Of a DNA stretch of 22,576 bases, positions 1,935-22,576 are shown one piece after another; position 1 is the stretch's first letter, and each line of letters begins with the position of its first letter. The DNA is from a virus, in the IMG/VR virus record IMGVR_UViG_3300022860_000006, positions 1-22,576 of that record; one strand, written 5' to 3'. Under the pieces are notes generated by a model, which worked only from the letters and a program-made list of their open reading frames with translations, was not told the origin of the DNA and ran no database searches. Both the position numbers and the translations under genes were made by a program.

Positions 1935-1948
1935 ATTAATCCTCCTTA

Positions 1949-2158: not shown

Positions 2159-2261
2159 ATTTTTACCTCTTTTAAATAGACGTGAAATACCATATTACCT
2201 ATTTGGATGTAGTATCCTATTACTTAATTGTAACATATATTTATATATATGGCATCCACGT

Positions 2262-2284: not shown

Positions 2285-4334
2285 ATAATTGTCTGTTAGT
2301 TATATCTATTGTTTCATATATTTTATCAATGGAAAACTTAATTGGATATAAACATCTGATCTCATATTGTCTGGAACTATATCTACCCAAGTTTCTTAAA
2401 TATGAATAGAATCCATCTGAATCCTGTTGTATCTCCATTGATATCCAGTTAGACCAATCGGAACCATTATTACGGAATCTTAATTCAAAATCAGCTCCTG
2501 GGTTTATATAATTTACATAATCTCTATCCAGTTTAATTTTTAATAACCTTGATACTTTATAATTTGGCGTTCCATGATCTAACCAAGATGTTACCTTATT
2601 AAATACTATTGGATATGAACTCAATCTATTAATTCTAAAAGCATTCTTTTGTGATTCAGCAGTTACTGTTATGAGTATAGTATCAACACCTGCAACATCA
2701 AACTCATGTGATTTAATATTTGCCGTTATGAACCCACCTGCTGATGATACGATTCCACCAGCTCTAGTTAATGTACATGTAGAACCGATTGGACCAGTAT
2801 ATGGGTTATATAATTCTAATTTAAAATTATATGCAGATGGTGTACCATAATAATAATATGGAAAATAATTCTCGGCAGGCGGGCTAGTCTTTTCATACCA
2901 TACTTCAAATAGTTTATTAATAGCACCACCATTAATATTAAACTTAATCTCACCAACATCTGTACCAGTACCGCCACTAACGCATTCAACTTCATATCTT
3001 TTATTGAAATTGGAACTAGCATCTGTTGAAGTTCTTTCTGTTACTAAATTATCAGAACCAAAATCATTATAACTTACATCAAATGTAGTCTCTGATTGAT
3101 CTGCCCTGAATATTGCATTACCTTGATATGTATGATTCTTTCCATTAACCATAGATAAATCAATACCATCCCATGGTTCAATACCAGCTTCCATATCATC
3201 TTCATCATAATATTGTACAGTTGGTGTTTCTATTTCAATATTGTCATCTACTTCACCATCTGGATTTAGTTTATATAAAGCAATGGATGAATTACTTACG
3301 CCCAAGATATCAGGTTCCGAAATGAAATATCTACCACCAAACTCAGTTCTTACACCATTAGAATAATTGGACCATTTTAACCATCCATTATCATTTATAG
3401 CATATACATATGTGGTATCTTCATTTGGAATGGTGAGTATATAAAACTTTAATCCATTAATATTAATTATATCTGCATATGAATCTGTAAAATCCAATGA
3501 TGATAATTCATTATCTATTAATAGTGATAATGATTTGAAATTAGTGTTAGCAATGGCATATACATGTTTATCAGAACCAAGATAATAAATAATCCCATCT
3601 AATTCCTGGATAGTATCTGTATAAGTACATCCAGTATTTAAAACTCCCCCAGATATTCTTGAAAATGGTGTGGCATCATTATACCAAAGTTCTACACTGG
3701 AAGTACAGAATCCATATATCATAGAGTTTGAAACTATTATAGATGTTACATTATCGGGTTTACCTTCAAATGAATAATAATCTCCAGACCATGTGATCGG
3801 TGAATTTATACCGGCAGTAGCATCTGAAAAGTACCATTTGTTATTTGTTTTATCCAGTGCCAATATATAATTATCTATATATGCAAGTACATCCACTGTA
3901 GTTGGAGCATCAGCATCGGTTACATATGCACTAGGAACACCAGTTGAACCGGCCCAGTTTAACATCCTTCCACCATTTGCCATGTTTACATATGTAGAAT
4001 TACTTGCAAAATAAACTTTATTAGTAACATTTAATGTTATACCACCTGATATATCTGTTATTTCATATTCCTCATCATTAATTTTATCAAATTGATATGC
4101 AACTCCATTTATAACACCAATTACTATATCTTTAGCTTCCCAATAATATAATCCATTGATAATTCCAGAGGAGGTATCATAATATTTACATTGCAAAGCT
4201 GGTCTATTTGTATTTACCTTTAATATATCTATAATAATATCAAATGCAGATGATACATAAGCACCTTTATTTGCTTTATCATCGGTATTTTCTAGTAAAT
4301 AACCATTGATAGGTATTTGAACTGTTTTTCTCAT
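2283..4334 (-). CDS. P22 gp10-like packaged-DNA stabilisation / tail hub protein
   Basis: This 683-residue protein starts at ATG 4334 after AGAGGAG. It is largely beta structure with repeating aromatic and Gly-containing strands, as in the propeller-like tail hub proteins. The stretch SSVELWYNDATPFSRISGG at about residues 213-231, followed by VLNTGC, resembles the conserved core of the P22 gp10 (packaged DNA stabilisation) family, where a 'S-x-E-x-[WY]-Y-N ... PF-x-R' pattern is typical. In that family the protein sits below the portal and the gp4 adaptor and closes the channel. The gene lies downstream of the gp4-like gene, as in P22, although small and fibre genes intervene. At 683 residues it is longer than P22 gp10 (about 470), and residues about 400-683 may be an added receptor or tail module. 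Its stop codon overlaps the 23-bp element. Confidence 0.75.
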   Translation of the reverse strand: MRKTVQIPINGYLLENTDDKANKGAYVSSAFDIIIDILKVNTNRPALQCKYYDTSSGIINGLYYWEAKDIVIGVINGVAYQFDKINDEEYEITDISGGITLNVTNKVYFASNSTYVNMANGGRMLNWAGSTGVPSAYVTDADAPTTVDVLAYIDNYILALDKTNNKWYFSDATAGINSPITWSGDYYSFEGKPDNVTSIIVSNSMIYGFCTSSVELWYNDATPFSRISGGVLNTGCTYTDTIQELDGIIYYLGSDKHVYAIANTNFKSLSLLIDNELSSLDFTDSYADIININGLKFYILTIPNEDTTYVYAINDNGWLKWSNYSNGVRTEFGGRYFISEPDILGVSNSSIALYKLNPDGEVDDNIEIETPTVQYYDEDDMEAGIEPWDGIDLSMVNGKNHTYQGNAIFRADQSETTFDVSYNDFGSDNLVTERTSTDASSNFNKRYEVECVSGGTGTDVGEIKFNINGGAINKLFEVWYEKTSPPAENYFPYYYYGTPSAYNFKLELYNPYTGPIGSTCTLTRAGGIVSSAGGFITANIKSHEFDVAGVDTILITVTAESQKNAFRINRLSSYPIVFNKVTSWLDHGTPNYKVSRLLKIKLDRDYVNYINPGADFELRFRNNGSDWSNWISMEIQQDSDGFYSYLRNLGRYSSRQYEIRCLYPIKFSIDKIYETIDITNRQL

Positions 4335-4351
4335 GATAACTCCTCTGTTAT

Positions 4352-4732
4352 TTACTCTACATCAGGATATAATTCTTGTATTGCTACTCTTTTAGCTAAC
4401 CATGATGCCTTTAATGCTTCTAGTTTTGGATCATTGGAAAACTCATAAGAAGATAATACAGTAAGCATTGGGTCGCATTCTTCCATATAAGCATCTGCTC
4501 TCTTCTCTGCTGGGGTCCTTACATCCATTTCTTCTATCTCTTCAGCTGTCTTCAATACTATCTCTGAATCAACTATCTTTCTATGATTAGCTGGTGCATT
4601 GTTAACTTCATCTGAGATTACCGGGTTAATTAATACTCCTGGAATATTTGTATATTTTGGAGTATCTGCTGAATGAATGATTACTACACTGGAAACTACA
4701 CCATTTACTTCGGGATATGCTATGTTACTCAA
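4352..4732 (-). CDS. Hypothetical protein between the second lectin-like gene and the hub gene
   Basis: The frame encodes 126 residues. The most credible start is TTG at 4732, seven bases after GGAGGTG; no ATG in this frame has a comparable site upstream. The N-terminal half has short beta-like stretches (VVSSVVIIHS, GVLINPVISDE). The C-terminal half is charged and helical, with EEIEEMDVRTPAEKRADAY and a final helix KLEALKASWLAKR. It has no signal peptide, unlike the fibre and lectin-like genes just upstream, and ends 18 bp before the hub gene. In this position it could be a fibre chaperone or a tail assembly factor, but nothing in the sequence shows that. Confidence 0.7.
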   Translation of the reverse strand: MSNIAYPEVNGVVSSVVIIHSADTPKYTNIPGVLINPVISDEVNNAPANHRKIVDSEIVLKTAEEIEEMDVRTPAEKRADAYMEECDPMLTVLSSYEFSNDPKLEALKASWLAKRVAIQELYPDVE

Positions 4733-4772
4733 TTTACACCTCCAAGGCTTTTTATTAATATTATTTTATACA

Positions 4773-5780
4773 TTATCGTCTCCTCTTTTGACCATTATTA
4801 AAATATGTGTCATGAGCATTATATGTTATTGTTTTTCCTTCATAAGCTCTAATAAGATCAGGTTTATATGGGTTAGTTCTTTGAGTTGTTGGTGATGTGA
4901 AGTTATTAAAAGTTAAAGGTGTAGTTGATGAATATGGTGGAATTATATTTGTCCATGATGAATTAGATGTTACCTTTCTTCTTTTATATTGTGTTTCTGC
5001 ACTTAATCCACCAACAGAAAACTCAGGAGTACTACCACCCCATACATTTTGGTCAGCAATTGGAGTTGCTAATGTTAAAAATGGAACTTGACTACCATGA
5101 CCAGCCCTTAACATTCTATATAATGAATCATGGTTTTTAATTCCATCTTCATTTGATGAGCCAAGTATAACCCATTCTTTCATTGCGCCTGAAAAATTAC
5201 AAGATTGAACTCCCTGAAATAAATTTAAAAATGTAATATTATCTCTACATAAAACATTATAAGTTGAAGATGTAAGTGTATGATAGAATACTTCTGGGGT
5301 ATAATTATCCATATACATGGTACATTTAACGTTAGAAGATGCTTGATGTAATTCAAATGCAATTGCGAAATCATGGGATTTACCATCACCAAGAGTAATT
5401 TTATTATCTGATTCATAACTTTGTAATGCAGAATCTTGCGTATCTATTGTTGTCATAAAATGACCTTCAGCACCGTGAGTACCAGCAACTGATGATATTG
5501 CTAATCTTTGGTATGTGTAACTTTGATAACCATAAGTATTTAATAATATATGACCATAAATACTGGAACCACTATATACACTATCCAATCTAAACTTACA
5601 ATACATAAATAATGTTTTACTCCTACCTAACCCTAATGCACCATATTGATAATATTGTGCTGCACCTTGTGTATCAGTTAGAGTTATTTTATCAGTAACA
5701 GCAGTAGTTGCAGTGTATTCATATTCTGCAATACATGGACTTAAACTAAATAATAATATAAAAATTATTATATATTTCAT
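4773..5780 (-). CDS. Secreted or virion lectin-like protein (LamG/ConA-like), second cassette
   Basis: I place the start at ATG 5780 behind GGGAGG, one base after the stop of the fibre gene, giving 335 residues. A five-residue longer start upstream has no better site. Residues 1-18 (MKYIIIFILLFSLSPCIA) are a clear Sec-type signal peptide. The body is rich in alternating hydrophobic and aromatic strands (LFMYCKFRLDS, HDFAIAFEL, VKCTMYMDNY), as in LamG/concanavalin-like beta-sandwich domains. A Ser/Thr-rich tail follows and the protein ends in KRRR. It resembles the protein of 9161-10012 in layout: signal peptide, beta-sandwich, Arg-rich C-terminus, and position directly after a fibre. Carbohydrate binding is inferred from fold appearance only. 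Confidence 0.6.
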   Translation of the reverse strand: MKYIIIFILLFSLSPCIAEYEYTATTAVTDKITLTDTQGAAQYYQYGALGLGRSKTLFMYCKFRLDSVYSGSSIYGHILLNTYGYQSYTYQRLAISSVAGTHGAEGHFMTTIDTQDSALQSYESDNKITLGDGKSHDFAIAFELHQASSNVKCTMYMDNYTPEVFYHTLTSSTYNVLCRDNITFLNLFQGVQSCNFSGAMKEWVILGSSNEDGIKNHDSLYRMLRAGHGSQVPFLTLATPIADQNVWGGSTPEFSVGGLSAETQYKRRKVTSNSSWTNIIPPYSSTTPLTFNNFTSPTTQRTNPYKPDLIRAYEGKTITYNAHDTYFNNGQKRRR

Positions 5781-5781
5781 A

Positions 5782-7206
5782 TTAATTCCTCCCAAGTCTT
5801 ACTCTCATTGAAGTTAATTTAAAATCACCAGGCATTGTATCTGTAGCTGGGTCTCTTCTCAATCTAAACTGGATATCATCACCATCTGCCCATGATGGAG
5901 TAAATGTTATTGTTATTTTAGTTGTTTTATAATTAGTTGAATTAATAGTAGTTGCACTGGAAGAGTTTACAGTTGCTGAATAATTAGTTGTTAATGCAGT
6001 TGTGCTATTATATGGACTATGATATAAATCAAACTTTACATTTCCAGATGTAGAATATGTTGAATACCCTATAACCTCAACTATAACTGAACCATTATTC
6101 CAATCTGTTGGTACTGCAAATGTTCCTTGTAAATATTCTGGATATGTATCATCAAACCTATGGAAATATATTCTATTATATGTGCCACTATCATAATCTA
6201 GTGGAGCCAACTCATAAGTTACACCATCTGGATAATCAAAACTCCCAGCTACCAAGTTTATCATCTTTTCTGGTTTAGAAGCTGTTACCCATGAAGGATT
6301 AGAACCTGCACCATTAGTTTTTAGTAATTGACCAGAAGTTCCATATCCTAATACAACCCATGCCGAACCATTGTAATATAAAATATCACCTTGAGTTCCA
6401 GATGGTAAACCAGAAGGAGCAGTTACCCATGATGGGGCAGCAGCACCATTAGCTTGAAGTACATAATTTGCAGTTCCTGCTGGTAATCTATCCCAGTCTG
6501 TACCATCAAAATATATAATATCTCCTGTTGCAGCACTTGAATCAATACTATTTTTAACACCCCATAAACTTGATAATGTCGTTTTCTTAATATAATAATT
6601 ATTTGATACATATTTTAAACTATAAAAATCATCTGTTGAAGCTGTTAATGGGTCATTAGATGGGTCTACATATACATCTTGAATATCTGTTAATTCTGCC
6701 AATGATTTAACTGCCCATGTTGGGTTAGAACTTACACCATTAGTTTGTAATACATATCCAGAAGTTGCAGGCGCAAGGCCAACTAAATCACCAGCTGAAT
6801 CTCTATAAGAAATGGTTCCTTGATCTGTTGATATATTTACATCACCAACATCATTAATTTCAGTTATGGTTGTTCCACCACTTGATGAAGCTGTAACTGG
6901 ATCAGTATCCATGATAGTAACTAAATCTCTATCTTTTATAATAATCCTATAAGTTCCATCTATATAAATTATCCTTCTTCCAGTACCATCTAATGAAACC
7001 GGCTGTGATATTACAGTTGAACCATTATCTGAATATACATCTTTCTCAGTTGTTGTACCTGATTCATAAAAATATAATTTACCAAAGGAATTAACCTTTC
7101 CATATTGATTATTGATCCCTGTATATGACGGCATGAATAAGGATGCACTGTAACCTATTGTAGTGAATAATATTAATATAATTGTTGCTATTGTCTTTCT
7201 AAACAT
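5782..7206 (-). CDS. Tail fibre protein with Sec-type signal peptide, second cassette
   Basis: The start is ATG 7206, eight bases after GGAGGATG, one base past the stop of the gp4-like gene, giving 474 residues. Residues 1-20 are a signal-peptide-like segment (MFRKTIATIILILFTTIGYS). Next comes a domain well known from phage tail fibres, with GKLYFYESGTTTEKDVYSD and later GTYRIIIKDRD (about residues 35-95). The middle has repeats of the form 'YVLQTNG...PTWA' and 'YVLQANG...PSWV', typical of fibre shafts. The C-terminal ~150 residues, from SFDYPDG to the end, form a beta-rich domain also found at the end of the fibre at 10028-11620, likely the receptor-binding or trimerisation tip. A fibre role is well supported; the signal peptide is unusual for a virion protein. 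Confidence 0.8.
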   Translation of the reverse strand: MFRKTIATIILILFTTIGYSASLFMPSYTGINNQYGKVNSFGKLYFYESGTTTEKDVYSDNGSTVISQPVSLDGTGRRIIYIDGTYRIIIKDRDLVTIMDTDPVTASSSGGTTITEINDVGDVNISTDQGTISYRDSAGDLVGLAPATSGYVLQTNGVSSNPTWAVKSLAELTDIQDVYVDPSNDPLTASTDDFYSLKYVSNNYYIKKTTLSSLWGVKNSIDSSAATGDIIYFDGTDWDRLPAGTANYVLQANGAAAPSWVTAPSGLPSGTQGDILYYNGSAWVVLGYGTSGQLLKTNGAGSNPSWVTASKPEKMINLVAGSFDYPDGVTYELAPLDYDSGTYNRIYFHRFDDTYPEYLQGTFAVPTDWNNGSVIVEVIGYSTYSTSGNVKFDLYHSPYNSTTALTTNYSATVNSSSATTINSTNYKTTKITITFTPSWADGDDIQFRLRRDPATDTMPGDFKLTSMRVRLGRN

Positions 7207-10027: not shown

Positions 10028-11620
10028 TTATTCAGACCTTGTATATTTCAATCTAAACATGACCAAGTTCCAATCTCCTGAAAGGTCATCACCAGCATTA
10101 CCAACATCTCTAGTTATTCTAGCAAATATTGTATCACCAGCTGAATAACCATATACTGAAATTGCTTTTGTGATTATATGTTTATATTTAGCAGTTGCTG
10201 GAACATCAGAAGATACCGCTGAATATGCAGTTCCTGTTGCATCAATCGATGTTGTACTACCCCATTTTCTATAATAAATACCAATACCAATAGCACCTGT
10301 TGTTTGTGTTTCAGAAAATCCTTCAAATTCAAAGATTAAATCATTGGCAGAATTAAACCCAGGTTTAAAAGTATGACTTATTATTAATGAATTATTTGTA
10401 CTATCATCAAATGCTTGGAAGTATGTTCTGGTATAAGGACTATCATAATAATCTAGAGCAGCTATTTCATGAGTTGCACCGTTTGGATAATCAAAACTCC
10501 CAGCTGGAAACTCAACTACTTCAGTTTGTGAAACACTACCGCCACCAGCCGCCGCCCATGATGCAGTTGTACCATTTGATGTTAATACATAAGTACTTGC
10601 ACCTATTGCTAATCTACCAGCAGCGCCACTTGAACCACCAAGTATAATATCACCAGCAGTTGTCATTGGATTATCAAATCCGCCACTTGCAGCAGCCCAT
10701 GATGCAGTTGTACCATCTGATGTTAATACTTGAGTTGCTGCACCTATTGCTAATCTACCAGCAGCACCACTTGTACCACCAAGTATAACATCACCAGCAG
10801 TTGTCATAGGATTTTCAAATCCACCACTTGCAGCAGCCCATTCTGGGGCAGTTGCACCTGCATTCATTGTTAATACTTGAGTTGCTGTACCTTTTGCTAA
10901 TCTAGTTTGGGCACCACTTGTACCACCATAAATTACATCACCTTGAGTTGTCATTGGATTATCAACTTTACCATTGAATGTATTCCAATTAGTAGAAGTT
11001 AAATATCCATCAGTAGAAGTTGAAGCAGCACCTAATTTAGTTTTAATTGTTGTTACTGTCTCATCGCCAGTATTTGTATTAGATGTATTATCAACTACTG
11101 CCATTTCAGCAGCTGTTAAATGACCATAATATCCAGCTTCACCACCATCAATAGAACCTAAGTCATTATGTAGAGCAGTGGATGAACCATCGGCTTTCCA
11201 TTCTGGCAATAACCCACCTGAGTTCATTGTTAATACTTGATCTGCAGTACCTTTATTCAATACTTCCCATGTAGTACCATATATCAATATATCTCCTGAA
11301 GTCCCAGAAGGTAAACTACCACTACTACCAGAAATTGTTACCATTAAATTACCAGTTGCATCGCACATTAATGGTACAAACATATCACTTGCAGAAACAT
11401 AACCAGCCATTGCCCCTACTGGAGCTGAAAGGTTAATAAATGGTGGAGCTGTTGCTATCGATACACTTGAAGATGCTACAATAAGACCTTCTGCGGTCAT
11501 ATTAATAACTCTCCATATATTATTAGTAGCATCAAAAGCTAATGCCTCTCCATTGATACCTGCATATACTGGAAGTGATAACATAAGCATAAATATAAAT
11601 ATAATTAATTTTTTATACAT
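10028..11620 (-). CDS. Tail fibre protein with Sec-type signal peptide and repeated shaft, first cassette
   Basis: I take ATG 11620 as the start (AGGAG five bases upstream), with ATG 11623 as the alternative; an ATG at 11662 has no site. This gives 530 residues. Residues 1-21 are signal-peptide-like (MYKKLIIFIFMLMLSLPVYAG). The shaft holds 'GDI..G..W.VL' and 'QVLTMNSG...PEW' fibre repeats, then three tandem 47-49-residue units beginning NPMTT and ending in SWAAASGGF (about residues 221-362). The C-terminal ~160 residues, from SFDYPNG on, are homologous to the tip of the fibre at 5782-7206, with shared SFDYP, LDY, TYF/IYF and FDD positions. This is probably a receptor-binding fibre or fibre-like adhesin. 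The signal peptide could instead mean that it is exported from the infected cell. Confidence 0.8.
   Translation of the reverse strand: MYKKLIIFIFMLMLSLPVYAGINGEALAFDATNNIWRVINMTAEGLIVASSSVSIATAPPFINLSAPVGAMAGYVSASDMFVPLMCDATGNLMVTISGSSGSLPSGTSGDILIYGTTWEVLNKGTADQVLTMNSGGLLPEWKADGSSTALHNDLGSIDGGEAGYYGHLTAAEMAVVDNTSNTNTGDETVTTIKTKLGAASTSTDGYLTSTNWNTFNGKVDNPMTTQGDVIYGGTSGAQTRLAKGTATQVLTMNAGATAPEWAAASGGFENPMTTAGDVILGGTSGAAGRLAIGAATQVLTSDGTTASWAAASGGFDNPMTTAGDIILGGSSGAAGRLAIGASTYVLTSNGTTASWAAAGGGSVSQTEVVEFPAGSFDYPNGATHEIAALDYYDSPYTRTYFQAFDDSTNNSLIISHTFKPGFNSANDLIFEFEGFSETQTTGAIGIGIYYRKWGSTTSIDATGTAYSAVSSDVPATAKYKHIITKAISVYGYSAGDTIFARITRDVGNAGDDLSGDWNLVMFRLKYTRSE
10535..10960. repeat. Tandem ~141-147-bp repeats in the fibre shaft
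   Basis: Three in-frame units read NPMTT...GD.I.GG.SGA...RLA.G..T.VLT on the minus strand, starting at 10960 (147 bp), 10813 (141 bp) and 10672 (slightly shortened at its end). The two downstream units are nearly identical at the DNA level, which suggests recent duplication or gene conversion. Confidence 0.85.
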
Positions 11621-12189: not shown

Positions 12190-13215
12190 CTATGAATTAG
12201 ATATTGCTGTACGTGCTACAACAAGATCAATCAATGAATAATCCTTACTAGCGAATTGAGCTTTTTCAATACCAGTATAAAGCATAGCAGCAAGACCTTT
12301 TTGGAAATCATAATCAAAATCTTTTGATACCAAAGAAAACTTTTTACCATCAGCTCTACAAATAGCAGATTTACCCATGAATAAACATTCAGCAACAGGA
12401 ATAATACCACCGGCACCACCAAGTGTAGAATTACATCTTGAACTTGCAGTAATAAGTACACCATTATAAAGTAAATCACCAGCTCTAAATATAGGATTCT
12501 TTTTACCACGTTCTAATGCATCTCTTTGTGCCTGTTGCATTGCAGAGTTCTGACTAAGGTCATACATTACATCTTCTGGAACAACGAGTATATAAAGTTC
12601 CATACCATCTACGACGATAGGATCCATTCTATATGCGCTTCCACCGTTACCAGTTTTAGCGATTACTCTTGTTTTAGCAATAAGTGCTGGAGTAAGTTTA
12701 CCATTAGTTGCATCAACAGCAGCCAATGCAGTAGCAGCACTAGAACCAACTGTAAATGCAGTAGAGTTCATGTAACATACATTTGTAGGACTTGAATAAG
12801 CAGCTGAAAAATGAAGTCTATCTAATTTAGCAACTCCCCATTTTCTAAGCCATTCCTCTTCTTCAGCGGAAACATCAAAGCATGCACGTTTTCTTGTTAT
12901 AATATTATCTCTTACAGCCTGTCTGTATACTTCGAGTTCAACCTTAAAGTTACCTGTTTCTAATGCAACTTCATTATTCTCTAAAGTATCGGAACCACTA
13001 ACACCCTCTTCTGATTCAGGGTCAGTACTTGTAAGACCAAAAGTAATTTTATCACCTTGTTCTTTCATAAGATCTTCTTTAATCCAGACCAAAGAGTTCA
13101 TTTTGTCAGATGAGAATCTACTAAAAAAGGAATCTGCAATCATTCTGTCATATAATTTCTTTTCCCAGAGAGCCTTACGCAATTCATTTGATGTTGATAT
13201 AGTTGTTATAGCCAT
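12190..13215 (-). CDS. Major capsid protein, N4 gp56-like (DUF4043 type)
   Basis: The protein has 341 residues and starts at ATG 13215 behind AGGAGG. The N-terminal signature is typical of the N4 gp56 / DUF4043 coat family. ALWEKKLYDRMIADSFFSRF at about residues 14-33 is followed by IKEDLMKEQGDKITFGL, then LENNEVALETGNFKVELEVYRQAVR with the expected spacing. A conserved Trp/Arg-containing helix follows (EEWLRKWGVAKLDRLHF). The later IVVDGMELYILVVPEDVMYDL region matches the family's 'G...Y...v.p....dL' pattern. Members are HK97-fold coat proteins forming the icosahedral head; length is within the usual 340-400. It follows the scaffold gene and precedes a decoration-like gene and a leaky terminator. 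Recognition rests on motif memory, not on a search. Confidence 0.85.
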   Translation of the reverse strand: MAITTISTSNELRKALWEKKLYDRMIADSFFSRFSSDKMNSLVWIKEDLMKEQGDKITFGLTSTDPESEEGVSGSDTLENNEVALETGNFKVELEVYRQAVRDNIITRKRACFDVSAEEEEWLRKWGVAKLDRLHFSAAYSSPTNVCYMNSTAFTVGSSAATALAAVDATNGKLTPALIAKTRVIAKTGNGGSAYRMDPIVVDGMELYILVVPEDVMYDLSQNSAMQQAQRDALERGKKNPIFRAGDLLYNGVLITASSRCNSTLGGAGGIIPVAECLFMGKSAICRADGKKFSLVSKDFDYDFQKGLAAMLYTGIEKAQFASKDYSLIDLVVARTAISNS

Positions 13216-13220
13216 TTTTT

Positions 13221-13236
13221 AATCCTCCTATGGATT
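13221..13236 (-). promoter_or_regulatory. Ribosome-binding hairpin of the coat gene
   Basis: On the minus strand AATCC and GGATT flank ATAGGA, forming a 5-bp stem that presents the AGGAGG site, with the coat ATG five bases further. The copy at 12120-12136 differs by one extra A in the loop. The duplicate suggests a selected high-output initiation site used by the two most abundant head proteins. Confidence 0.4.
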
Positions 13237-13244
13237 TTATCTAA

Positions 13245-14126
13245 TTATTTTAAAGTTTTGAGTAATTTGTCTACCTGTGCTGGAGTTAGTGAGTCGATAT
13301 CTATATTTGAATAATCCTTACCAACTGTTGCAGGAATATCATTAATAGATTTCTTACCTGCTTTATTAAAATTATCCGTTATGGATTTCTTTGATTTTGT
13401 TAGGTCTTCAATTTTCTTTTCTAGTGAAGCTATTTTGAGTGACGCTTCAGCTCTTTTAAATAGATTGAATGTAACCGATGTATCAAAGGAACCTGGATTA
13501 TTTATAAAAGCATTAATAAACTTATCACCAGCTTCGTCCTGTTTGAGAATCTCAATAACGGCAGTCATATTGGTTTTGTAATCATAATCTTTACCAAGAG
13601 TTTCTTCTATAATCCTAATATTGTTTTGGCTTATATCTTGACTCCTGATATTACTAATCCTACTTTCTAATTCCTGACGTTTATTAACATTCTCCTGTAT
13701 TTTTTTCATGGATTCAATTGGATTTTCAATAGCATCATCATCAGATGGGTCTACTATTTCATTTTTAGATTTCTCTAATTCAGCCAATTGTTTCCGTAAG
13801 TCACCTATTTCACTACTTCTTTTACCAATAAATGTATCTTTATCTGCTATTCTTTTATCTTTCTTTTGTAAATGTGCTATTAATTCTTCTTTTGTATAAT
13901 CATCATATGTTTTATCTTTAGTATTTTCAACTGGTTTAGTATCAGGTTGAACATCATTTTCTTTGGTATCATCATTTTCTTTGGTATCATCATTTTCTTT
14001 AGATTCACCTTTTTCAATTTCAGCTATAATTTCATCAACTGATTTATCTTCAGTGTTCTCTATACCAAATTCCGTTAATATATCATCTACACTTGTTTCC
14101 TCTACAATGTTATTTTCTTCTGTCAT
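13245..14126 (-). CDS. Capsid scaffolding protein
   Basis: The protein has 293 residues and starts at ATG 14126 behind GGAAGGA. It is highly charged and almost wholly helical. There is an acidic N-terminus (MTEENNIVEETSVDDIL), three KENDDT-type repeats, a coiled-coil segment (EIGDLRKQLAELEKSKNEI), more charged helices, and a Lys-rich C-terminal part ending AQVDKLLKTLK. This composition and its place between portal and coat are those of scaffolding proteins, which guide procapsid assembly and bind coat through a basic C-terminal segment. The gene is first after the 23-bp element at 14238-14260, with a 112-bp leader holding a strong palindrome. No protease motif is visible. Confidence 0.8.
   Translation of the reverse strand: MTEENNIVEETSVDDILTEFGIENTEDKSVDEIIAEIEKGESKENDDTKENDDTKENDVQPDTKPVENTKDKTYDDYTKEELIAHLQKKDKRIADKDTFIGKRSSEIGDLRKQLAELEKSKNEIVDPSDDDAIENPIESMKKIQENVNKRQELESRISNIRSQDISQNNIRIIEETLGKDYDYKTNMTAVIEILKQDEAGDKFINAFINNPGSFDTSVTFNLFKRAEASLKIASLEKKIEDLTKSKKSITDNFNKAGKKSINDIPATVGKDYSNIDIDSLTPAQVDKLLKTLK
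13953..14006. repeat. Three 18-bp repeats in the scaffold gene
   Basis: The plus-strand unit atcattttctttggtatc occurs twice exactly (13953, 13971) and a third time with changes (13989). It encodes the KENDDT repeats in the acidic linker of the scaffold protein. Confidence 0.9.
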
Positions 14127-14197
14127 GTTATTAATCCTTCCGAATGATTGGGTTTTGATTATATTACTAATTAATTATACTACAATTTTGAAGAAAG

Positions 14198-14227
14198 TGT
14201 AACATTATGTTTAAATATAATGTTACA
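14198..14227. repeat. Perfect 11-bp palindrome in the scaffold leader
   Basis: The arms tgtaacattat and ataatgttaca surround an 8-base loop. The structure lies 11 bp downstream of the 23-bp element and about 70 bp before the scaffold ATG. The stem is AT-rich and followed by CTTTCTTC on the minus strand, which is a poor terminator tract. It could be a 5' stabilising hairpin of the late mRNA or an operator. An ATGTTACA word also occurs downstream of the element at 2262-2284. Confidence 0.7.
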
Positions 14228-14237
14228 TCTTCATCTA

Positions 14238-14260
14238 CATATTTTGTTCCAAGTTATTTT
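14238..14260 (-). promoter_or_regulatory. 23-bp conserved element, copy B (putative late promoter)
   Basis: This is an exact copy of the 23-bp element at 2262-2284 and 19244-19266, in the same minus-strand orientation. It overlaps the last codons and stop codon of the small gene at 14254-14574. Downstream is an AT-rich TTATATTTAAA tract and then the scaffold-coat gene block, so it is placed to drive the most highly expressed head genes. Confidence 0.65.
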
Positions 14261-14574
14261 TCTTTTCTTAATCTACCTTCATATCTCTGTAATATACCAT
14301 TTAATTTCTCAATAAAGTCAACTATCATTTTAACTTCTTCATCATCATCAAAAAATGGAATATCATTTCCAGTAACTTCTTCTATCTCATCTCTTATAAC
14401 TATAGCAATGGCTTCTCTTTCTGCTGGTTCATCAATGAAATCATTAGCACCATCTACTATTTCCCTTAGCAATGCACGTAATAGCTTCGGATCTTTCTTA
14501 TACTTTTCAATATAACTTTGTATAGTACCGTTGATAACTCTATTCTTGATCTTGTTAAAACTGAATAATGGCAT
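14254..14574 (-). CDS. Small acidic protein between portal and scaffold, paralogue of 8419-8670
   Basis: The protein has 106 residues and starts at ATG 14574 behind AAGGAGATC. It is helical and charged. Residues about 49-90 match the small protein of 8419-8670: E-P-A-ER-x-A-x-x-I-x-IRDEIE-x-x-x-G-x-DIP-x-x-DD followed by a hydrophobic helix. The N-terminal part has a basic helix (NKIKNRVINGTIQSYIEKY) instead of the hydrophobic one in its paralogue. I do not recognise the family. Its location between the portal and scaffold genes suggests an assembly factor, which is inference. Its stop codon lies within the 23-bp element. Confidence 0.75.
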   Translation of the reverse strand: MPLFSFNKIKNRVINGTIQSYIEKYKKDPKLLRALLREIVDGANDFIDEPAEREAIAIVIRDEIEEVTGNDIPFFDDDEEVKMIVDFIEKLNGILQRYEGRLRKEK

Positions 14575-14589
14575 GATTGATCTCCTTTA

Positions 14590-16722
14590 TTATCTTACTT
14601 GTTTCATATTATTAGGATTACCTGGAACATTTTGGCTTTGACCTTTTGGCTTGGGTTGGGGTTGTTGCATTTGTTGCTGTATCTGCATTTGTTGATTTCT
14701 TTGTATACCCATAATTATTTCATCTTTTTCTGGAATAGGTAAGTTCTTTATTAATAACTCCATCGGAACTGGGATACCTTTACCTGCTAATTCTGATAAT
14801 AACATATAGTTCTGCATCATTGCTGACTGACTATGCTGGGATAGATCTACAACAACATCATACTTTAATAGATCTATATCTTTTAATTTCTCTATTATAT
14901 AATCTATTGGTATTTCTTTGAAGTCTTGTTGTTGACCATCTACTGGTAACTGGAATTTATTCTTTGTATAATTATTTTGCAGTATCCTTACTATTCTCTC
15001 AGGATCATTGGCATATACCTCCTGCATTAGTTTAATAAGTTGATTACCAAGTTTAACTTTAGCCATATTGAAGTTACTAAATACAATTTCATTTCCAACC
15101 ATTGCAGATTGTTTCTTTTGCATGATCGCTACACCAGATTGGGAACTACTATCTCCACCAGTACCAAGCATTTCCGGGTTTACATTAGTTATCTGTCTGA
15201 ATAAACGGATATCTGTTTCTAACATTTGAGCAGCACCAGTAGGAGCAGGGGCCCCTATTTCTAATTGTGGTCTATTGGCTATATTATCAACTCTAAATAC
15301 ACCATTTGGTCTATGAGCATTACGTATAAACTTCTGTCTATCATTATCATTAATAAATGTATTGCTATCATAGAAGTATTTGTTACTACTTGATCCGGAT
15401 ACATTCTGGGATAATTGGCAATGTCTTAGATTTATTTCCTGTTGTGGGAGTTTTGACTGTTCAACCTTACCATAAAATATATTTTTATTATTCCTGATGA
15501 ACTTATGAACGTAATATGGCGTTACAAAGAAATCAGCGAATTGATCAGATACTAATTCTTTAGCTACTATTTTAGAACCAACAGAAACAACTATCTTAAT
15601 TCTTTCTATTTTCTTATTCACTATCTTTATATCTTCAATGGTTTTTATCTTTGATATATATTTCTTATAATTACCAAGTTCTAATACTTCATCATCTAAT
15701 ATACCAACTGGAATTGATTTGACTACTTTATCTCTTCTTTCTAATACTAGATATTTATTACCATCTTTCAATGATATATTTAATCCGGGCTCACCACCAT
15801 TATTATTACCAACTGATATTTCTGAATTAGGTTCCAGACTTCCACCATCTTGTACAACATGAGTACTATCTGATTTTAATATTGAAGAAGATACTGATAA
15901 TTCATCATCAGTTAAATCAAAATAATCTTTAGCTTCTTGTTTGGTTATCCATTTCTGTATGAATAAATATGGGCAATCTGATAAGTCTTCATTTTTATGT
16001 GGACCAAATCTAAATGTTTTCCAGTCAGCCCATTTAATCTTAATATCACCTTTAATATTATCACCATAATCTATATATGGCATGAAGCAACCTCTACCAG
16101 CTATAATACCATCTTTAAATACTTTCATTGATTGATACTGTAAATTATTAACACTTGTAACATGTTTTAATAATCTAGTTATAACTGATGCTATTAATTC
16201 ATCACCTTCTTCACTTGGATATGCTTTGAAATCAGTTTCAGCTTGTAAGAACATTCCCATTAACGTATCTATCATTGGTTGGGTTACATTAATTGATAAT
16301 ACAGGTTTACCCATATCAGTTCTAGCTTTAATAACTTTTTCATCCCATTGCATGTTACCACCGATAACAAATCCTTCTGATTCAACACCGGATTCAATAG
16401 AATCTTTCTCTAACTCATCTGCGTCTTGATATTTTTCAAATTGCTGTGACCACTCTTCACCATCATCTAATGTCCATTTTAATTTAGATTCTTTTAATGG
16501 CATTAATGTATGTGAGTGCTCTTCAATATCTGGATCAAACATTAATTCAGCAGGTTGATCATTTATAATAACCATAGATTCTTCAGTTGTTATTTCTGAT
16601 GGCGGTACCAGTTCTGGAAAATGGGAATGTCCATCATCTGTACTAACATATGCTTTACCATTATCTGATATTAATATAATGTGTTCATGGTTGTAATTAT
16701 CATCTGTAATAAAAAATTGCAT
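14590..16722 (-). CDS. Portal protein, P22-like, with His-motif N-terminal extension
   Basis: The protein has 710 residues and starts at ATG 16722 after AAGGGAG. The portal core is recognisable from about residue 135 by GKPVLSINVTQPMIDTLMG, then ITRLLKH and FKDGIIAGRGCFMPYIDY, the pattern of the P22 gp1 portal family. A 'W.....F.FGP' stretch, a long wing region and a C-terminal helical, Gln/Met-rich barrel-like tail (QMQIQQQMQQPQPKPKGQ) complete it. Length is close to P22 gp1 (725). Portals form the dodecameric ring through which TerL pumps DNA. An N-terminal extension of about 80 residues carries three H-x-H motifs (H12/H14, H32/H34, H69/H71) that could bind metal; I cannot assign them a role. 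It lies between terL and the small 106-aa gene. Confidence 0.85.
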   Translation of the reverse strand: MQFFITDDNYNHEHIILISDNGKAYVSTDDGHSHFPELVPPSEITTEESMVIINDQPAELMFDPDIEEHSHTLMPLKESKLKWTLDDGEEWSQQFEKYQDADELEKDSIESGVESEGFVIGGNMQWDEKVIKARTDMGKPVLSINVTQPMIDTLMGMFLQAETDFKAYPSEEGDELIASVITRLLKHVTSVNNLQYQSMKVFKDGIIAGRGCFMPYIDYGDNIKGDIKIKWADWKTFRFGPHKNEDLSDCPYLFIQKWITKQEAKDYFDLTDDELSVSSSILKSDSTHVVQDGGSLEPNSEISVGNNNGGEPGLNISLKDGNKYLVLERRDKVVKSIPVGILDDEVLELGNYKKYISKIKTIEDIKIVNKKIERIKIVVSVGSKIVAKELVSDQFADFFVTPYYVHKFIRNNKNIFYGKVEQSKLPQQEINLRHCQLSQNVSGSSSNKYFYDSNTFINDNDRQKFIRNAHRPNGVFRVDNIANRPQLEIGAPAPTGAAQMLETDIRLFRQITNVNPEMLGTGGDSSSQSGVAIMQKKQSAMVGNEIVFSNFNMAKVKLGNQLIKLMQEVYANDPERIVRILQNNYTKNKFQLPVDGQQQDFKEIPIDYIIEKLKDIDLLKYDVVVDLSQHSQSAMMQNYMLLSELAGKGIPVPMELLIKNLPIPEKDEIIMGIQRNQQMQIQQQMQQPQPKPKGQSQNVPGNPNNMKQVR

Positions 16723-18346: not shown

Positions 18347-18868
18347 TTATTTTTTACTCAAATCTCTTATCAAATCAACTAATGATTCATTTACATTTTT
18401 ATCTTTATCTTCTGGAGCTTTTTCAGACCAACCATATTCTTTACCCTGGGTCTTTAATGCAAATATTAAACATGCAGTATCACCTGATAATGCCTTCCTA
18501 TATAATGTTTCTGATAGATTTGTTAATCTTTCCATCTTGGCTAGTTCCATTACTAAAATTATATCACCATATCTTTTAATATCATTTGGTTTATCACTGG
18601 ACATTATGTTTTCAGATAAATGTAAACAGTTTAATATAACTCTTTCCTGTATACCGGCGCATGCCATCTTATATATTAATCTTAATTCATTATCAGATAT
18701 ATTTTTACTAACCTTCTTTGGACCGGGTTTTCCCTTGGCATTTAATATGGATCTTATCTTCTTTATATTTATTTCATTTGATATTTTCTTATTTATTACC
18801 TTTAATTTTGTTACCTTTAATTTTGTTACCTTTTTATTTTTTGGAGGTGTTATCTTTTTTGCTACCAT
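18347..18868 (-). CDS. Terminase small subunit
   Basis: The protein has 173 residues and starts at ATG 18868 behind GGAGGT, inside the end of the upstream gene (35-bp overlap). The N-terminus is very basic (MVAKKITPPKNKKVTKLKV) with a five-residue repeat. Next comes a helix-turn-helix-like part (LRLIYKMACAGIQERVILNCLHLS), then a helical region with ETLYRKALSGDTACLIFALKT and GKEYGWSEK. The 'A..GD....FwLKt..GW' pattern is typical of phage TerS proteins, which bind the pac/cos site and recruit TerL. TerL starts 40 bp downstream, as expected. Confidence 0.8.
   Translation of the reverse strand: MVAKKITPPKNKKVTKLKVTKLKVINKKISNEINIKKIRSILNAKGKPGPKKVSKNISDNELRLIYKMACAGIQERVILNCLHLSENIMSSDKPNDIKRYGDIILVMELAKMERLTNLSETLYRKALSGDTACLIFALKTQGKEYGWSEKAPEDKDKNVNESLVDLIRDLSKK
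18796..18833. repeat. 15-bp repeats at the start of terS
   Basis: The plus-strand unit ttacctttaattttg occurs at 18796 and 18811, with a partial copy at 18826. It encodes the KVTKL repeats in the basic N-terminus of the small terminase. Confidence 0.85.
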
Positions 18869-19345: not shown

Positions 19346-19807
19346 CTACAATGAAACACGATGAATAATTACAACCGAACCTTTATGCTTTCCACCCTTA
19401 ATATTTATTCTACCATTCTTGACTCTATAATTTGCAACAACACTATTTATATTCCATCCAATATTATCCATATAATAGTTTAAAGGTTCTTTAATACCAA
19501 CTAAATTATTATTTTTATCAAACATTGTATATAAATATTTGAAGTTTGGATTGTTATCACCAAGCATATGAAGCTTCCTATGTTCTGACTTTGATATCAA
19601 CTGAAGATTATCTATTATATTATTAGTCTTATTTCCATCTATATGATGTATAAGATATCCCTTTGGAATCTTTTCATTATGATAATGTTCCCATATCAGT
19701 CGATGAACCATTGTTGATTTATTATTATAACATATTGATTGATAACCATTTACATAATTAATATTCTTACCCATATAAGTCTTTGCGTCTTTGTTTATTT
19801 CGTTCAT
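19346..19807 (-). CDS. Free-standing HNH endonuclease (homing type)
   Basis: The protein has 153 residues and starts at ATG 19807 behind GGAG. It has the HNH_3 pattern: VHRLIWEHYHNEKIPKGY (residues 34-51), then IHHIDGNKTNN with His54/His55 and Asp57, IDNLQLISKSEHRKLH with Asn67 and His76. The C-terminal ~70 residues include GWNINSVVANY, which may be a DNA-binding (NUMOD-like) helix-turn-helix. Such enzymes nick or cut DNA and spread between phage genomes. The gene has its own consensus promoter (19849-19877) and terminator (19276-19307), so it looks like an inserted cassette between the polymerase-like gene and the packaging operon. Confidence 0.85.
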   Translation of the reverse strand: MNEINKDAKTYMGKNINYVNGYQSICYNNKSTMVHRLIWEHYHNEKIPKGYLIHHIDGNKTNNIIDNLQLISKSEHRKLHMLGDNNPNFKYLYTMFDKNNNLVGIKEPLNYYMDNIGWNINSVVANYRVKNGRINIKGGKHKGSVVIIHRVSL

Positions 19808-19848: not shown

Positions 19849-19877
19849 ATTATAAATTATCAATACATTAATGTCAA
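19849..19877 (-). promoter_or_regulatory. Perfect sigma70-type promoter for the HNH gene
   Basis: TTGACA (19877-19872), a 17-base spacer and TATAAT (19854-19849) on the minus strand match the consensus completely. The -10 box lies 42 bp before the HNH ATG, and the -35 box begins 10 bp after the stop of the polymerase-like gene. Confidence 0.85.
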
Positions 19878-19886: not shown

Positions 19887-21233
19887 TTATTTATTTTCAA
19901 CTTTATCATAATGAAATGAAAAAAATACATCTATATATTTTGATATTATGTTTTTTATATCATTAATAGTATCTTCTGATACATTATCAATAAAATATAA
20001 CCCATCGTGTAGACTTAAAAATCTAATACCTGTTATTTTTAGATATACCCAAACATCCTGGAACATTAATGATTCATATCTTTGCATTATCTGGGGGAGT
20101 ACATACTTACCATTAACATCAACTGGGATAGAAATATCATTAATATCTATTTTTTTAATTGGATCATCTTTGACCTTTTTAATATCATACATGAAACTTT
20201 TAAACTTATGATCATATTTATATTCTAGTTTTTTAGCAAGAATACCATACATCTTCCCATATAATAATTGGAATACATATCCTTTATCTTCTTCACCATT
20301 ATCATCTAACCATTCACCATATATTCTAACCTGTTTATTAATTTTATCTGTAAATACATTATCACCTTTTTTACATTTCAATATATGGCCCAATAATGTA
20401 GGCTGGGATTGTTTTAAATCTAAACAATATGATAGGTCCTCTCCATTCAATTTAACCCTGTTACGCATCCATGAAGGAATACTGGATAATATAGAATGAT
20501 ATCTCCATCCAAATGAATCTTTAATAGTTGGGGATATTAACTTTAGATATGGTGTTTTAGAGTTCCAGTTGACCATCTTAGTATAGTTGGCAACATTTTT
20601 TATTATAAATTCACCGTATTGTTCATCATCAGATAAGTTTTTAATTGATTTATGATTTTTTAATTTAAATTTTTTAAAACATTTTGGGGTATCAACTCTT
20701 TTCCAATATTCTTCTTCAGTTACCGGATCAATTGTTACGTCCATTAAATCCATTGCCATTTGAAGTCTAACATCACTATCATAATTATTAATTATCTCAC
20801 TTTCAACAACAGCTTTTAATAATTTATAATCTAATATTTTTGTTTCTGGAATTGAATATGCTGTTTCATTCACACTGAATATATTATAATTATGTTTGGA
20901 GTTTTCACTAGATACTTTTTCGAAGTTAATATATCCGGCTTTTTTTAATTCCATTAATAATTTTGAATATAATGTATGATTTGATATGTTTGAAAATATA
21001 TCATACGATATATGAGTGTAACCTTCTTTATACCAATATGGATTCTCAGCCACACCTCTTTTAATTAAATACAAAATATGGGCAGCAATCTTTAATGATC
21101 TACCCTTTAAATTTATATTAATATGATTATGGTCGAGTGTTGTTGATATGCTAGATACTATTTCTTCATAGTGTATATTTGATTTTAATCTTTTATATAT
21201 ATTCATTTGATGGGATTTGAAAAATTGTTTCAT
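19887..21233 (-). CDS. Putative compact family-A/T7-type polymerase-like protein with N-terminal winged helix
   Basis: The protein has 448 residues and starts at ATG 21233, eight bases after GGAG. Residues about 40-120 look like a winged helix (KIAAHILYLIKRG, ISYDIFSNIS, LMELKKAGYINFE). Residues about 240-440 carry a palm-like series. Motif A is Y-C-L-D272-L-K-Q-S-Q-P, resembling Pol I D-Y-S-Q-I-E. Motif B is K317-G-Y-V-F321-Q-L-L-Y325-G326, with the same K-x3-F-x3-Y-G spacing as the Pol I O-helix. Motif C is L-H409-D410-G. The usual O-helix Arg and motif A Glu are missing and there is no exonuclease domain. Spacing between motifs is shorter than in Pol I or T7 RNA polymerase. It could be a replicative DNA polymerase, an RNA polymerase/primase-like enzyme or an inactive relative; the gene itself is certain. 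Confidence 0.5.
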   Translation of the reverse strand: MKQFFKSHQMNIYKRLKSNIHYEEIVSSISTTLDHNHININLKGRSLKIAAHILYLIKRGVAENPYWYKEGYTHISYDIFSNISNHTLYSKLLMELKKAGYINFEKVSSENSKHNYNIFSVNETAYSIPETKILDYKLLKAVVESEIINNYDSDVRLQMAMDLMDVTIDPVTEEEYWKRVDTPKCFKKFKLKNHKSIKNLSDDEQYGEFIIKNVANYTKMVNWNSKTPYLKLISPTIKDSFGWRYHSILSSIPSWMRNRVKLNGEDLSYCLDLKQSQPTLLGHILKCKKGDNVFTDKINKQVRIYGEWLDDNGEEDKGYVFQLLYGKMYGILAKKLEYKYDHKFKSFMYDIKKVKDDPIKKIDINDISIPVDVNGKYVLPQIMQRYESLMFQDVWVYLKITGIRFLSLHDGLYFIDNVSEDTINDIKNIISKYIDVFFSFHYDKVENK

Positions 21234-21280
21234 TGTTATGGCTCCATAATTGTTTTTCCTGATATTAGTTTAAAGGAAAC

Positions 21281-21304
21281 CCAGATGGGAGCAACCCCAC
21301 CTGG
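21281..21304 (-). promoter_or_regulatory. Stem-loop in the leader of the polymerase-like gene
   Basis: On the minus strand CCAGGTGGG pairs with CCCATCTGG (one G-U pair) around GTTGCT. It lies about 40 bases after the predicted transcript start and is followed by GTTTCCTTT, a poor U-tract. A second possible pairing (TTTCCT with AGGAAA) follows. It may attenuate or stabilise the transcript, or end read-through from the upstream pair of genes. Confidence 0.5.
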
Positions 21305-21350
21305 TTCAATTTTGGATAAAATGAAATATCTTCAAACAATATCTAATATA

Positions 21351-21379
21351 GTTATACCTTTATATTTGATGTTTGTCAA
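21351..21379 (-). promoter_or_regulatory. Sigma70-type promoter for the polymerase-like gene
   Basis: TTGACA (21379-21374), a 17-base spacer and TATAAC (21356-21351) on the minus strand. The -35 box begins one base after the ribbon-helix-helix gene's stop codon. The predicted leader is about 110 bases. The adjacent regulator gene makes autorepression or local control plausible. Confidence 0.8.
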
Positions 21380-21380
21380 T

Positions 21381-21527
21381 CTATTTATTATCTTTTTTCA
21401 TTTCTTCCTGTAAAAACAATCTCATGATCACTGATTTGCTTAGACCTCTATCCTTTGATAACTTATTTAGAAAATCCATTTCATCTTGTTTCATGTACAT
21501 CGTGAATGTTCTTTCATGTTTAACCAT
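21381..21527 (-). CDS. 48-aa ribbon-helix-helix DNA-binding protein
   Basis: This short gene starts at ATG 21527 behind AAGGAGG and overlaps the end of the zinc-ribbon gene by 8 bp. The protein reads MVKHERTFTMYMKQDEMDF at the start (a beta strand, then helix 1) and continues with LNKLSKDRGLSKSVIMRLFL, the second helix after the G-L-S-K-S turn. This is the Arc/CopG/MetJ ribbon-helix-helix pattern: R-x-F-x-M near the start, L-x-x-L, then G-x-S-x-S-x-x-I/V. Such proteins bind DNA as dimers in pairs and often repress their own operon. The gene lies directly before the promoter of the polymerase-like gene and is a good candidate repressor for it or for the upstream promoter. Confidence 0.85.
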   Translation of the reverse strand: MVKHERTFTMYMKQDEMDFLNKLSKDRGLSKSVIMRLFLQEEMKKDNK

Positions 21528-21918
21528 ATATATCCTCCTTTATATTTGCATAACCATTATTTTCCATTAAATTTGCATAACCACTATTATCTGGGGTATA
21601 ATCTTGGTTTTCATATTTTAACCATTTATATGACTTATCATCATTCCTAGTGAGAAAAAACGTATCTGGGGATTGCCTTTGTTGACCAAAATTCAAAGAT
21701 GCACCACATCCACGGCATATTATCTTTATATATTTATATCCTTCAGATTCTGTTATATATGCCTTTAGATATAAATCATCAGATTTACAACACCCACATT
21801 CTTTAACATCATAAAAACTAAGCTTCTGGGATTCCATCTGTACTTCCCATAAATCCTTACCTTCAACTTGGAATGTATGAGTTTCTCTACCAATACGTTT
21901 TATTATTAATTTTTTCAT
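21520..21918 (-). CDS. Zinc-ribbon protein, first gene of the early operon
   Basis: The protein has 132 residues and starts at ATG 21918 behind AGAGGT. Cys41-x-x-Cys44 (with Cys43) and Cys68-x-x-Cys71 are spaced as in a zinc ribbon, with strand-rich sequence between (LYLKAYITESEGYKYIKII) and a following G-A-S-L-N-F-G-Q. Similar small zinc-ribbon proteins sit among replication and recombination genes in many phages, so nucleic-acid binding is likely but not shown. The C-terminus has a nine-residue duplication (SGYANLMEN / NGYANIKED), also visible as a 27-bp DNA repeat near 21544-21590. A consensus promoter lies 37 bp upstream. Translation of the ribbon-helix-helix gene is coupled to it by overlap. 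Confidence 0.8.
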   Translation of the reverse strand: MKKLIIKRIGRETHTFQVEGKDLWEVQMESQKLSFYDVKECGCCKSDDLYLKAYITESEGYKYIKIICRGCGASLNFGQQRQSPDTFFLTRNDDKSYKWLKYENQDYTPDNSGYANLMENNGYANIKEDIYG

Positions 21919-21954
21919 ATAATACCTCTTTCAATTGGTTTTAATTATAAATTA

Positions 21955-21983
21955 ATTATACATTATATATGAGGTAAAGTCAA
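21955..21983 (-). promoter_or_regulatory. Sigma70-type promoter for the zinc-ribbon operon
   Basis: TTGACT (21983-21978), a 17-base spacer and TATAAT (21960-21955) on the minus strand, one base from the full consensus. It lies between the repeat region and the zinc-ribbon gene. Confidence 0.85.
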
Positions 21984-21993
21984 ATACTATTTT

Positions 21994-22002
21994 TTATACA
22001 CA
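21994..22002 (+). other. DnaA-box-like 9-mer
   Basis: TTATACACA matches the general DnaA box consensus TTATNCACA and lies 11 bp beyond the -35 box of the zinc-ribbon promoter and about 60 bp from AT-rich repeats. A single 9-mer can arise by chance in AT-rich DNA, so it supports an origin only with the repeats beside it. Confidence 0.35.
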
Positions 22003-22280
22003 AGTGATTCGCTATATCCATTGATGCGTATAGGGTTTTCAGCGTTTAGTGGAGTATATGATATAGGATATATATATTTACATGATTAATTAATTGGAAA
22101 TGGGAAATGATAGGATATATATATTTACATGATTAATTAATTGGAATGGGGAATGATAGGATTATATATTTATATGAATTACGGATGCGTTTAACAAAAT
22201 ATTGGGGACTTGTACTGAAGAATATCTGTAAATATACATTACCATTATTATTATTGGATGTATTCCCATCCATCTCACCT
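22003..22280. other. Non-coding repeat region, candidate replication origin
   Basis: No convincing gene lies here. The region is strongly AT-rich and its left half holds 46/47-bp tandem repeats (22063 to about 22180). A DnaA-box-like 9-mer and a promoter lie just to the left and an HNH gene to the right. The words atgcgta and atgcgtt recur around it at 22024, 22183 and 22306. The arrangement of iterated AT-rich units next to replication-type genes is what origins often look like, but no function is shown. Confidence 0.4.
22063..22180. repeat. 46/47-bp tandem repeats, two full copies plus a partial third
   Basis: Units start at 22063, 22110 and 22156, each opening ataggat and containing atatttacatgattaatta in the first two copies. 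The second copy is one base shorter in its G/A tail. The third copy diverges after about 20 bases. They are not in a credible reading frame. Confidence 0.85.
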
Positions 22281-22576
22281 TTACCATTTATTATTATTTA
22301 GGGTCATGCGTTGGATAATATATGTTTTCATATCCATTGGCATTTCATTTAATTTGGTAGTTAATATTTTCATATGACTTTCGGATAGTGTTCCTTTTAT
22401 CTTATTAACTGTTCCAGCTAGTACTTGTAAATTATTAATATCATTGGTCCCACCTTTTGAAATTGGGATTATATGATCTATATTAAAGTTCTTATCATCT
22501 ATTACATATTCATTCATATACACGTCAGGTTTAAATATATTATTATAGATTACTTGTCTTAGTTCATTGATGTCTA
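22281..22576 (-). CDS. HNH endonuclease, 5' end beyond the window
   Basis: The frame is open from the right edge to the stop at 22281, about 98 residues visible. It begins DINELRQVIYNNIFKP at the edge, so the internal GTG at 22523 need not be the start. The HNH core is IDHIIPISKGGTND, then NNLQVLAGTVNKIKG: the His of DH, the Asn of NLQ and the final N-x-x-K match the classical HNH pattern (DHI-P-S-GG-...-N-Q-L-...-N-K). The usual Cys pairs flanking such domains are absent in the visible part. It is likely a homing or mobile nuclease like the one at 19346-19807, or a nuclease of the replication module. The first residues cannot be seen. Confidence 0.75.
   Translation of the reverse strand, partial: DINELRQVIYNNIFKPDVYMNEYVIDDKNFNIDHIIPISKGGTNDINNLQVLAGTVNKIKGTLSESHMKILTTKLNEMPMDMKTYIIQRMTLNNNKW

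Follow-up and report, generated by a model that had tools for sequence, protein, structure and literature searches.

The phage protein P0001 (448 aa) is real and resembles a small, divergent A-family polymerase; proteins of this kind have been known since 2008, and P0001 is a variant of them. The explanation that we favor, with a probability of roughly 0.55, is that it belongs, as a strongly diverged member without an exonuclease, to the divPolA2 / TV-Pol type of superfamily-A polymerases, and that it most likely starts phage replication and leaves host enzymes to continue it. Computation supports the motif relationship, the layout and the genomic setting, in which no other replication gene was recognisable. 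The gene lies in the window, by which we mean the whole stretch of DNA analysed here (an IMG/VR virus record of 22576 bases), and inspection of the sequence revealed GGAG just before its ATG. The gene and the parts of its product are as follows.

19887–21233, minus strand: polymerase-like open reading frame P0001, ATG to stop, 448 aa, subjected to motif-chain tests
20529–21233, minus strand: N-terminal region, residues 1–235, with a helix/strand pattern at 47–120 in a low-confidence model
20442–20513, minus strand: putative hairpin with R244 and R257, residues 241–264 (GWRYHSILSSIPSWMRNRVKLNGE), from hhalign and MAFFT against divPolA2
20385–20426, minus strand: putative motif A, residues 270–283 (CLDLKQSQPTLLGH) with D272 and Q277, from BLASTP, hhalign and the divPolA2 chain
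20361–20363, minus strand: D291, candidate conserved fingers Asp, from its spacing to D272
20244–20297, minus strand: motif B / O-helix, residues 313–330 (G313 for Arg, K317, F321, Y325-G326), the best block against Pol I
19992–20090, minus strand: QRYES helix and motif C (H409-D410-G411), residues 382–414, from alignments and the TV-Pol-like chain

All residues of the three motifs named in the initial annotation (D272-L-K-Q-S-Q-P, K317-GYV-F321-QLL-Y325-G326, and H409-D410-G411) were present as claimed, the motif spacings of 45 and 93 residues were correct, and the two replacements were confirmed, Gly313 at the position of the O-helix Arg and Gln277 at that of the motif A Glu. The motif chains described below support the proposed kinship with the Pol I / T7 RNA polymerase superfamily, in which D272, K317, Y325, and D410 would play their expected roles, and P0001 is too short to accommodate a typical exonuclease domain. 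The exceptional compactness attributed to the protein did not hold, because divPolA2 proteins already have 421–508 aa and bacterial relatives about 385–598 aa. Compact exonuclease-free A-family enzymes are already known (TV-Pol in 2008, CcPol-MP in 2020, and divPolA2 in 2024), and the size is not novel. Less usual are Gly313 in place of the fingers Arg, Gln277 at the steric-gate position, and the standing of P0001 as the sole recognisable replication gene of a ~32.3-kb phage.

No significant family match to P0001 was obtained with Pfam or PHROGs, including PHROG 4756, and none with PDB sequences. PF00476 did not match P0001, and the same profile was positive in 10 of 14 control genomes. Searches of 50,697 phage records, 72,556 plasmids, and IMG/VR (several patterns) returned only near-identical copies or chance matches, as did a search of 698 genomes of two groups. 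Degenerate searches steered by alignments of synthetic variants (A1, A2, and A4, which are not evidence) and by a DNA pattern of motif A yielded no relative, nor did any of the phages related through the portal, terminase, or 1466-aa neighbour proteins carry one. A 117-aa open reading frame in the phage fragment L009 that resembles the N-terminus of P0001 was rejected. The whole protein gave no significant match, and its scores with full-length HMMs were at the level of shuffles. The gene is present in two near-identical phages, between which it differs by one synonymous and zero amino-acid changes.

The relationship was detected at the level of ordered motifs. Profiles were built from the conserved blocks of 16 Pol I-type polymerases, with P0001 left out. 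With the ordered five-block chain P0001 scored 28.5 bits, a value reached by none of 5000 shuffles (mean −11.8, maximum 19.3). Among 728 open reading frames of at least 200 aa, some of them from 400 kb of bacterial DNA, those that ranked above P0001 were all true Pol I's and the best non-polymerase reached 13.4, whereas the published divPolA2 proteins, at 23.8 or less, ranked below it. Motif B supplied 19.7 of the 28.5 bits. The chain placed its motif A block at residue 241, not at D272, and motif A is therefore without support from the Pol I profile. The putative motif A is supported by the comparison with divPolA2. In a single comparison, BLASTP aligned the stretch of hairpin and motif A to divPolA2 with an E value of 0.01, and hhalign of residues 238–285 with the hairpin and motif A of divPolA2 scored 27.7 versus 24.6 for the best of 150 shuffles; with the C-terminal part only, the score was 26.8 versus 25.9 for shuffles. 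A chain trained on divPolA2 gave P0001 25.6 bits and ranked it among the true Pol I's, with a non-polymerase maximum of 15.9 and one of 5000 shuffles higher, and its last two blocks landed away from the expected residues of P0001.

At E ≤ 0.01, a profile that combined divPolA2 with P0001 (A7) matched 24 of 398 genomes, for the most part in frames of 400–600 aa, and ten of the matched proteins matched a divPolA2 HMM built without P0001 at 7e-20 to 3e-46. A TV-Pol-like chain was trained on those ten bacterial proteins alone. In a two-block ungapped test with long blocks, 48 of 5000 shuffles were as good as P0001, since the stretch from R257 to D272 is one residue longer in P0001. When the block was then split as it already had been for divPolA2, which makes the outcome partly post hoc, all four blocks fell at the expected residues of P0001 (251, 268, 313, and 381) and the score was 22.3 bits; every one of the 5000 shuffles stayed below it (maximum 16.8), and divPolA2 proteins scored 23–33. 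Motif A of P0001 contributed −1.9 bits to this chain, and a spurious antisense open reading frame opposite the portal gene of L071 scored 21.5. Among TV-Pol/divPolA2-like proteins of bacterial genomes (L120–L129, about 385–598 aa), two were checked and had no Pfam match but matched PHROG 4756.

By eye, the similarity was clearest at motif C, where the consensus LQrtdS...GipvLPiHDsf corresponds to MQRYES...GIRFLSLHDGL in P0001. Unaided MAFFT alignments put R244, R257, D272, S388, and D410 on conserved columns; R244 was aligned to the conserved hairpin Arg of the divPolA2 / TV-Pol type, and in the alignment with nine divPolA2 proteins D272 and D410 stood on invariant columns. The distances between the key residues of P0001 are 28 (R-D), 45 (D-K), 93 (K-D), and 38 (D-end), compared with 28–31, 39–58, 98–101, and about 36–40 in divPolA2, whereas Pol I has 33–47 for R-D and 110–170 for K-D, with a D-K range of 44–76 that overlaps P0001. 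The predicted layout of R244, D272, D291, K317, and D410 is thus closer to divPolA2 than to the Pol I spacing. The distance from D272 to D291 is 19 residues versus 20–22 in divPolA2, and MAFFT put D291 one column block off; the spacing is suggestive of D291 as the conserved fingers Asp. The fingers Arg of RxxxK, which is Gly313 in P0001, is present in 15 of the 16 Pol I's, in all nine divPolA2 proteins, and in most TV-Pol-like proteins; the comparison Pol I that also lacks it is L043 from Vibrio phage K299. A B-family polymerase, suggested by the DxxSxxP-like motif A, was rejected by eye on the basis of the O-helix spacing and the H-D motif C.

Structure prediction was uninformative because homologues for an alignment were lacking. 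Single-sequence AlphaFold models of P0001 had pLDDT values of 31.9 and 37.5, which is very low confidence, and Foldseek searches with the low-confidence models returned nothing significant. A palm-only model, also of very low confidence, contained a helix at 389–401, strands at 405–408 and 411–414, and a helix at 420–445, which is consistent with a motif C hairpin and is no evidence by itself. The helix/strand pattern at residues 47–120 could be a winged helix, which the weak model makes plausible; the N-terminal region matched no family in the family libraries and did not match the N-terminus of divPolA2.

Among the known relatives, divPolA2 of Caudoviricetes (for example AUR84708, which matches PHROG 4756) is a palm protein that lacks an exonuclease and occurs in large phages; no role was assigned to it (PMC11348598). 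It resembles P0001 in length, in having its own N-terminal domain, and in the R-D-K-D spacing, and the stretches of hairpin plus motif A and of QxxxS..HD align. In contrast to P0001, it keeps RxxxK, its N-terminus is not alignable, and it belongs to phages of 80–150 kb; barbaviruses are reported to have a regular DNA polymerase too. TV-Pols are predicted primase-polymerases of small elements (PMC2579912). As judged from their description and from the TV-Pol-like bacterial proteins rather than from the published TV-Pol sequences, they share with P0001 a minimal A-family core in 400–600 aa, the hairpin Arg, the two catalytic Asp, and a setting in mobile elements or small viruses, whereas P0001 lacks the Arg of RxxxK (K317 is kept) and has no D5-type helicase or recombinase nearby, none being found among the genes of the two phage records described below. 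Linkage to a D5-type helicase or recombinase is frequent but not universal in TV-Pols. CcPol with its small partner MP carries out de novo DNA priming, and such pairs recur in mobile elements (PMC7581432, PMC10061031). Like P0001, the polymerases of the CcPol-MP and PolA-SSB primases are A-family enzymes, either truncated or exonuclease-free, that adjoin a gene for a small protein; the partner in PolA-SSB primases has an OB fold that binds ssDNA, and the 132-aa neighbour of P0001 differs in being Cys-rich, upstream, and without an evident OB fold, and a helicase gene is absent. With E. coli DNA polymerase I and T7-like phage polymerases P0001 shares the catalytic Asp pair, the H-D motif C, and a K...F...YG O-helix exactly as in Pol I, but it has no significant family match, no exonuclease, shorter motif spacing, and a replaced Arg and Glu.

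A second record, IMGVR_UViG_3300023295_000009 (L027, 27189 nt), encodes an identical P0001 protein. It overlaps the window at 1–6207 and 20983–22576 with 99.6–99.9% identity, and the overlap at both window ends indicates a circularly permuted genome of ~32.3 kb (22576 + 9698). The leftward gene block runs from an HNH endonuclease through a 132-aa Cys-rich protein, a small ribbon-helix-helix-like open reading frame, P0001, an HNH_3 endonuclease, and a 118-aa open reading frame to small terminase-like, large terminase, P22-like portal, scaffold-like, and major capsid proteins, where the small terminase and scaffold calls are made mainly from position. The elements around P0001 are as follows.

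22281–22523, minus strand: HNH endonuclease gene bounding the module, by family match; it runs past the window end and has 152 aa in L027
22063–22177, no strand: 47-bp AT-rich tandem repeats, 2.5 copies, flanked by the HNH and 132-aa genes
21955–21983, minus strand: sigma70-like promoter TTGACT-N17-TATAAT of the module, upstream of the 132-aa gene
21520–21918, minus strand: 132-aa protein with two Cys pairs, weak Lar-like matches only
21381–21527, minus strand: small ribbon-helix-helix-like open reading frame, about 48 aa, fold assigned by eye; 21381–21500 from an inner ATG
21351–21379, minus strand: sigma70-like promoter TTGACA-N17-TATAAC, one mismatch, upstream of the P0001 gene
21281–21304, no strand: strong 10-bp GC-rich hairpin in the P0001 leader, between promoter and start codon, fold z −2.3
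19346–19807, minus strand: HNH_3 endonuclease gene bounding the module, by family match

The 132-aa protein, which had no match in Pfam or PHROGs beyond the weak Lar-like ones, is a possible Zn-binding partner, the 47-bp repeats are candidate origin repeats, and the leader hairpin is possibly an attenuator. The fragment L009 (9.9 kb), about 75% identical at the DNA level, has the same two HNH genes, but only about 150 nt separate them, and this interval contains neither the 132-aa gene nor the small open reading frame nor the polymerase gene. This fits cassette exchange, and the genes may lie elsewhere, the fragment being 9.9 kb. The genes recognised in the phage are structural and packaging genes, an M15 peptidase/endolysin, a metallophosphoesterase, antirepressors, an Arc-like repressor, HNH nucleases, and an NrdD-like fragment. 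Family scans of both records (~32.3 kb) matched no helicase, primase, other polymerase, or initiator, a result that concerns recognisable genes, as several long proteins had no match and some tail genes were unscanned; a second replication gene could be hidden among the unannotated long proteins. In L027, a 73-aa protein (13168–13389) resembles the C-terminal end of anaerobic ribonucleotide reductase (NRDD), which hints at an anaerobic host, and two tandem paralogous antirepressor-like genes (13481–15249) lie on the strand opposite to the rest. The near-identical phages differ in the terminase small subunit-like gene (window 18347–18868) by a single in-frame repeat unit of 15 nt. Tandem repeats of 141 bp (window 10539–10965) and 75 bp (109–277) lie within a tail-fibre-like gene and a left-end gene, respectively.

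The initial annotation had offered P0001 as a possible RNA polymerase for 23-bp elements that it left unspelled and that we take to be the TATAATTAATYTATAA elements. This shared element was located at three sites that look like promoters, in every case with TTGAC or TTGAT at the −35 distance, and overlaps near-consensus sigma70-like promoters (window 19849–19877 and 21955–21983; L027 15683–15711). The assignment is not supported, since the elements coincide with sigma70-like promoters of the form TTGAC/T-N17-TATAAT, and the near-palindrome may be a repressor operator shared by host-type promoters. With at most one mismatch the window has three sigma70-like sites, all on the gene strand and just upstream of the HNH_3, polymerase, and 132-aa genes, although their number is not above chance (3 versus 2.2 expected). 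A dedicated phage promoter distinct from the host type was not seen in the module, late promoters being outside the analysis. A single-subunit RNA polymerase transcribing phage genes is thus improbable, also because P0001 is half the size of T7 RNA polymerase, even though the superfamily takes in T7-like RNA polymerases, divPolA2 was proposed as a possible one (PMC11348598), and the steric-gate position is Gln, not Glu. We consider equally improbable an ordinary processive or repair DNA polymerase that extends host-supplied primers. Phages commonly carry DNA polymerases, and CcPol alone only extends primers (PMC7581432 as reported in PMC10061031), but family scans found no proofreading domain and no clamp-like or helicase partner in the phage.

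The replacement of the fingers Arg by G313, the divergent motif A, and the Gln at the Glu position would also suit a catalytically dead or weak palm relic that keeps the fold and serves as a DNA-binding replication initiator or regulator, and mobile elements harbor Pol relatives that consist of the RRM only and may be inactive (PMC10061031). This is possible but unlikely, given that P0001 retains the two catalytic Asp, the Lys and Tyr of the O-helix, and the hairpin Arg and that the Pol I of Vibrio phage K299 is likewise without the Arg. The lack of whole-protein homology, with full-length HMMs at shuffle level, and the score of the spurious antisense frame leave some room for a chance resemblance in an orphan phage protein that is not a polymerase. 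We regard this as very improbable, since three chains from separate training sets agree and the spacing and length of P0001 match divPolA2.

If P0001 is the divergent divPolA2 / TV-Pol-type polymerase that we favor, a presumed DNA-binding N-terminal domain would stand in front of a minimal palm-fingers core, in which D272 and D410 would be the metal ligands and K317 and Y325 would lie on the O-helix. It would be recruited close to the 47-bp repeats within its module, start replication of the ~32-kb phage as a primer-making or primer-extending polymerase, and then hand over to the host helicase and polymerase. Catalysis, priming, origin binding, and the hand-over are steps that we infer, and the role in replication start appears most likely because of the analogy with known relatives and because the phage has no further recognisable replication gene. 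Without the fingers Arg, catalysis may be reduced or unusual. We consider it unlikely that one A-family primase-polymerase of 448 aa suffices to start replication of the 32-kb tailed phage, binding the phage repeats with its N-terminal domain and using a changed nucleotide site (Gln gate, fingers Arg missing) that allows synthesis without a primer, perhaps from ribonucleotides or mixed nucleotides.

Small tailed phages often rely on the replication machinery of the host and contribute no more than an initiator of their own. P0001 is a compact candidate for primer-independent synthesis. PHROG 4756, to which no function is assigned, and bacterial proteins of 400–600 aa are now linked to mini A-family polymerases. 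A minimal Pol I-like protein that is the sole recognisable replication gene of its phage and partly lacks a near-universal nucleotide-binding motif would help to define the smallest working core of the superfamily.
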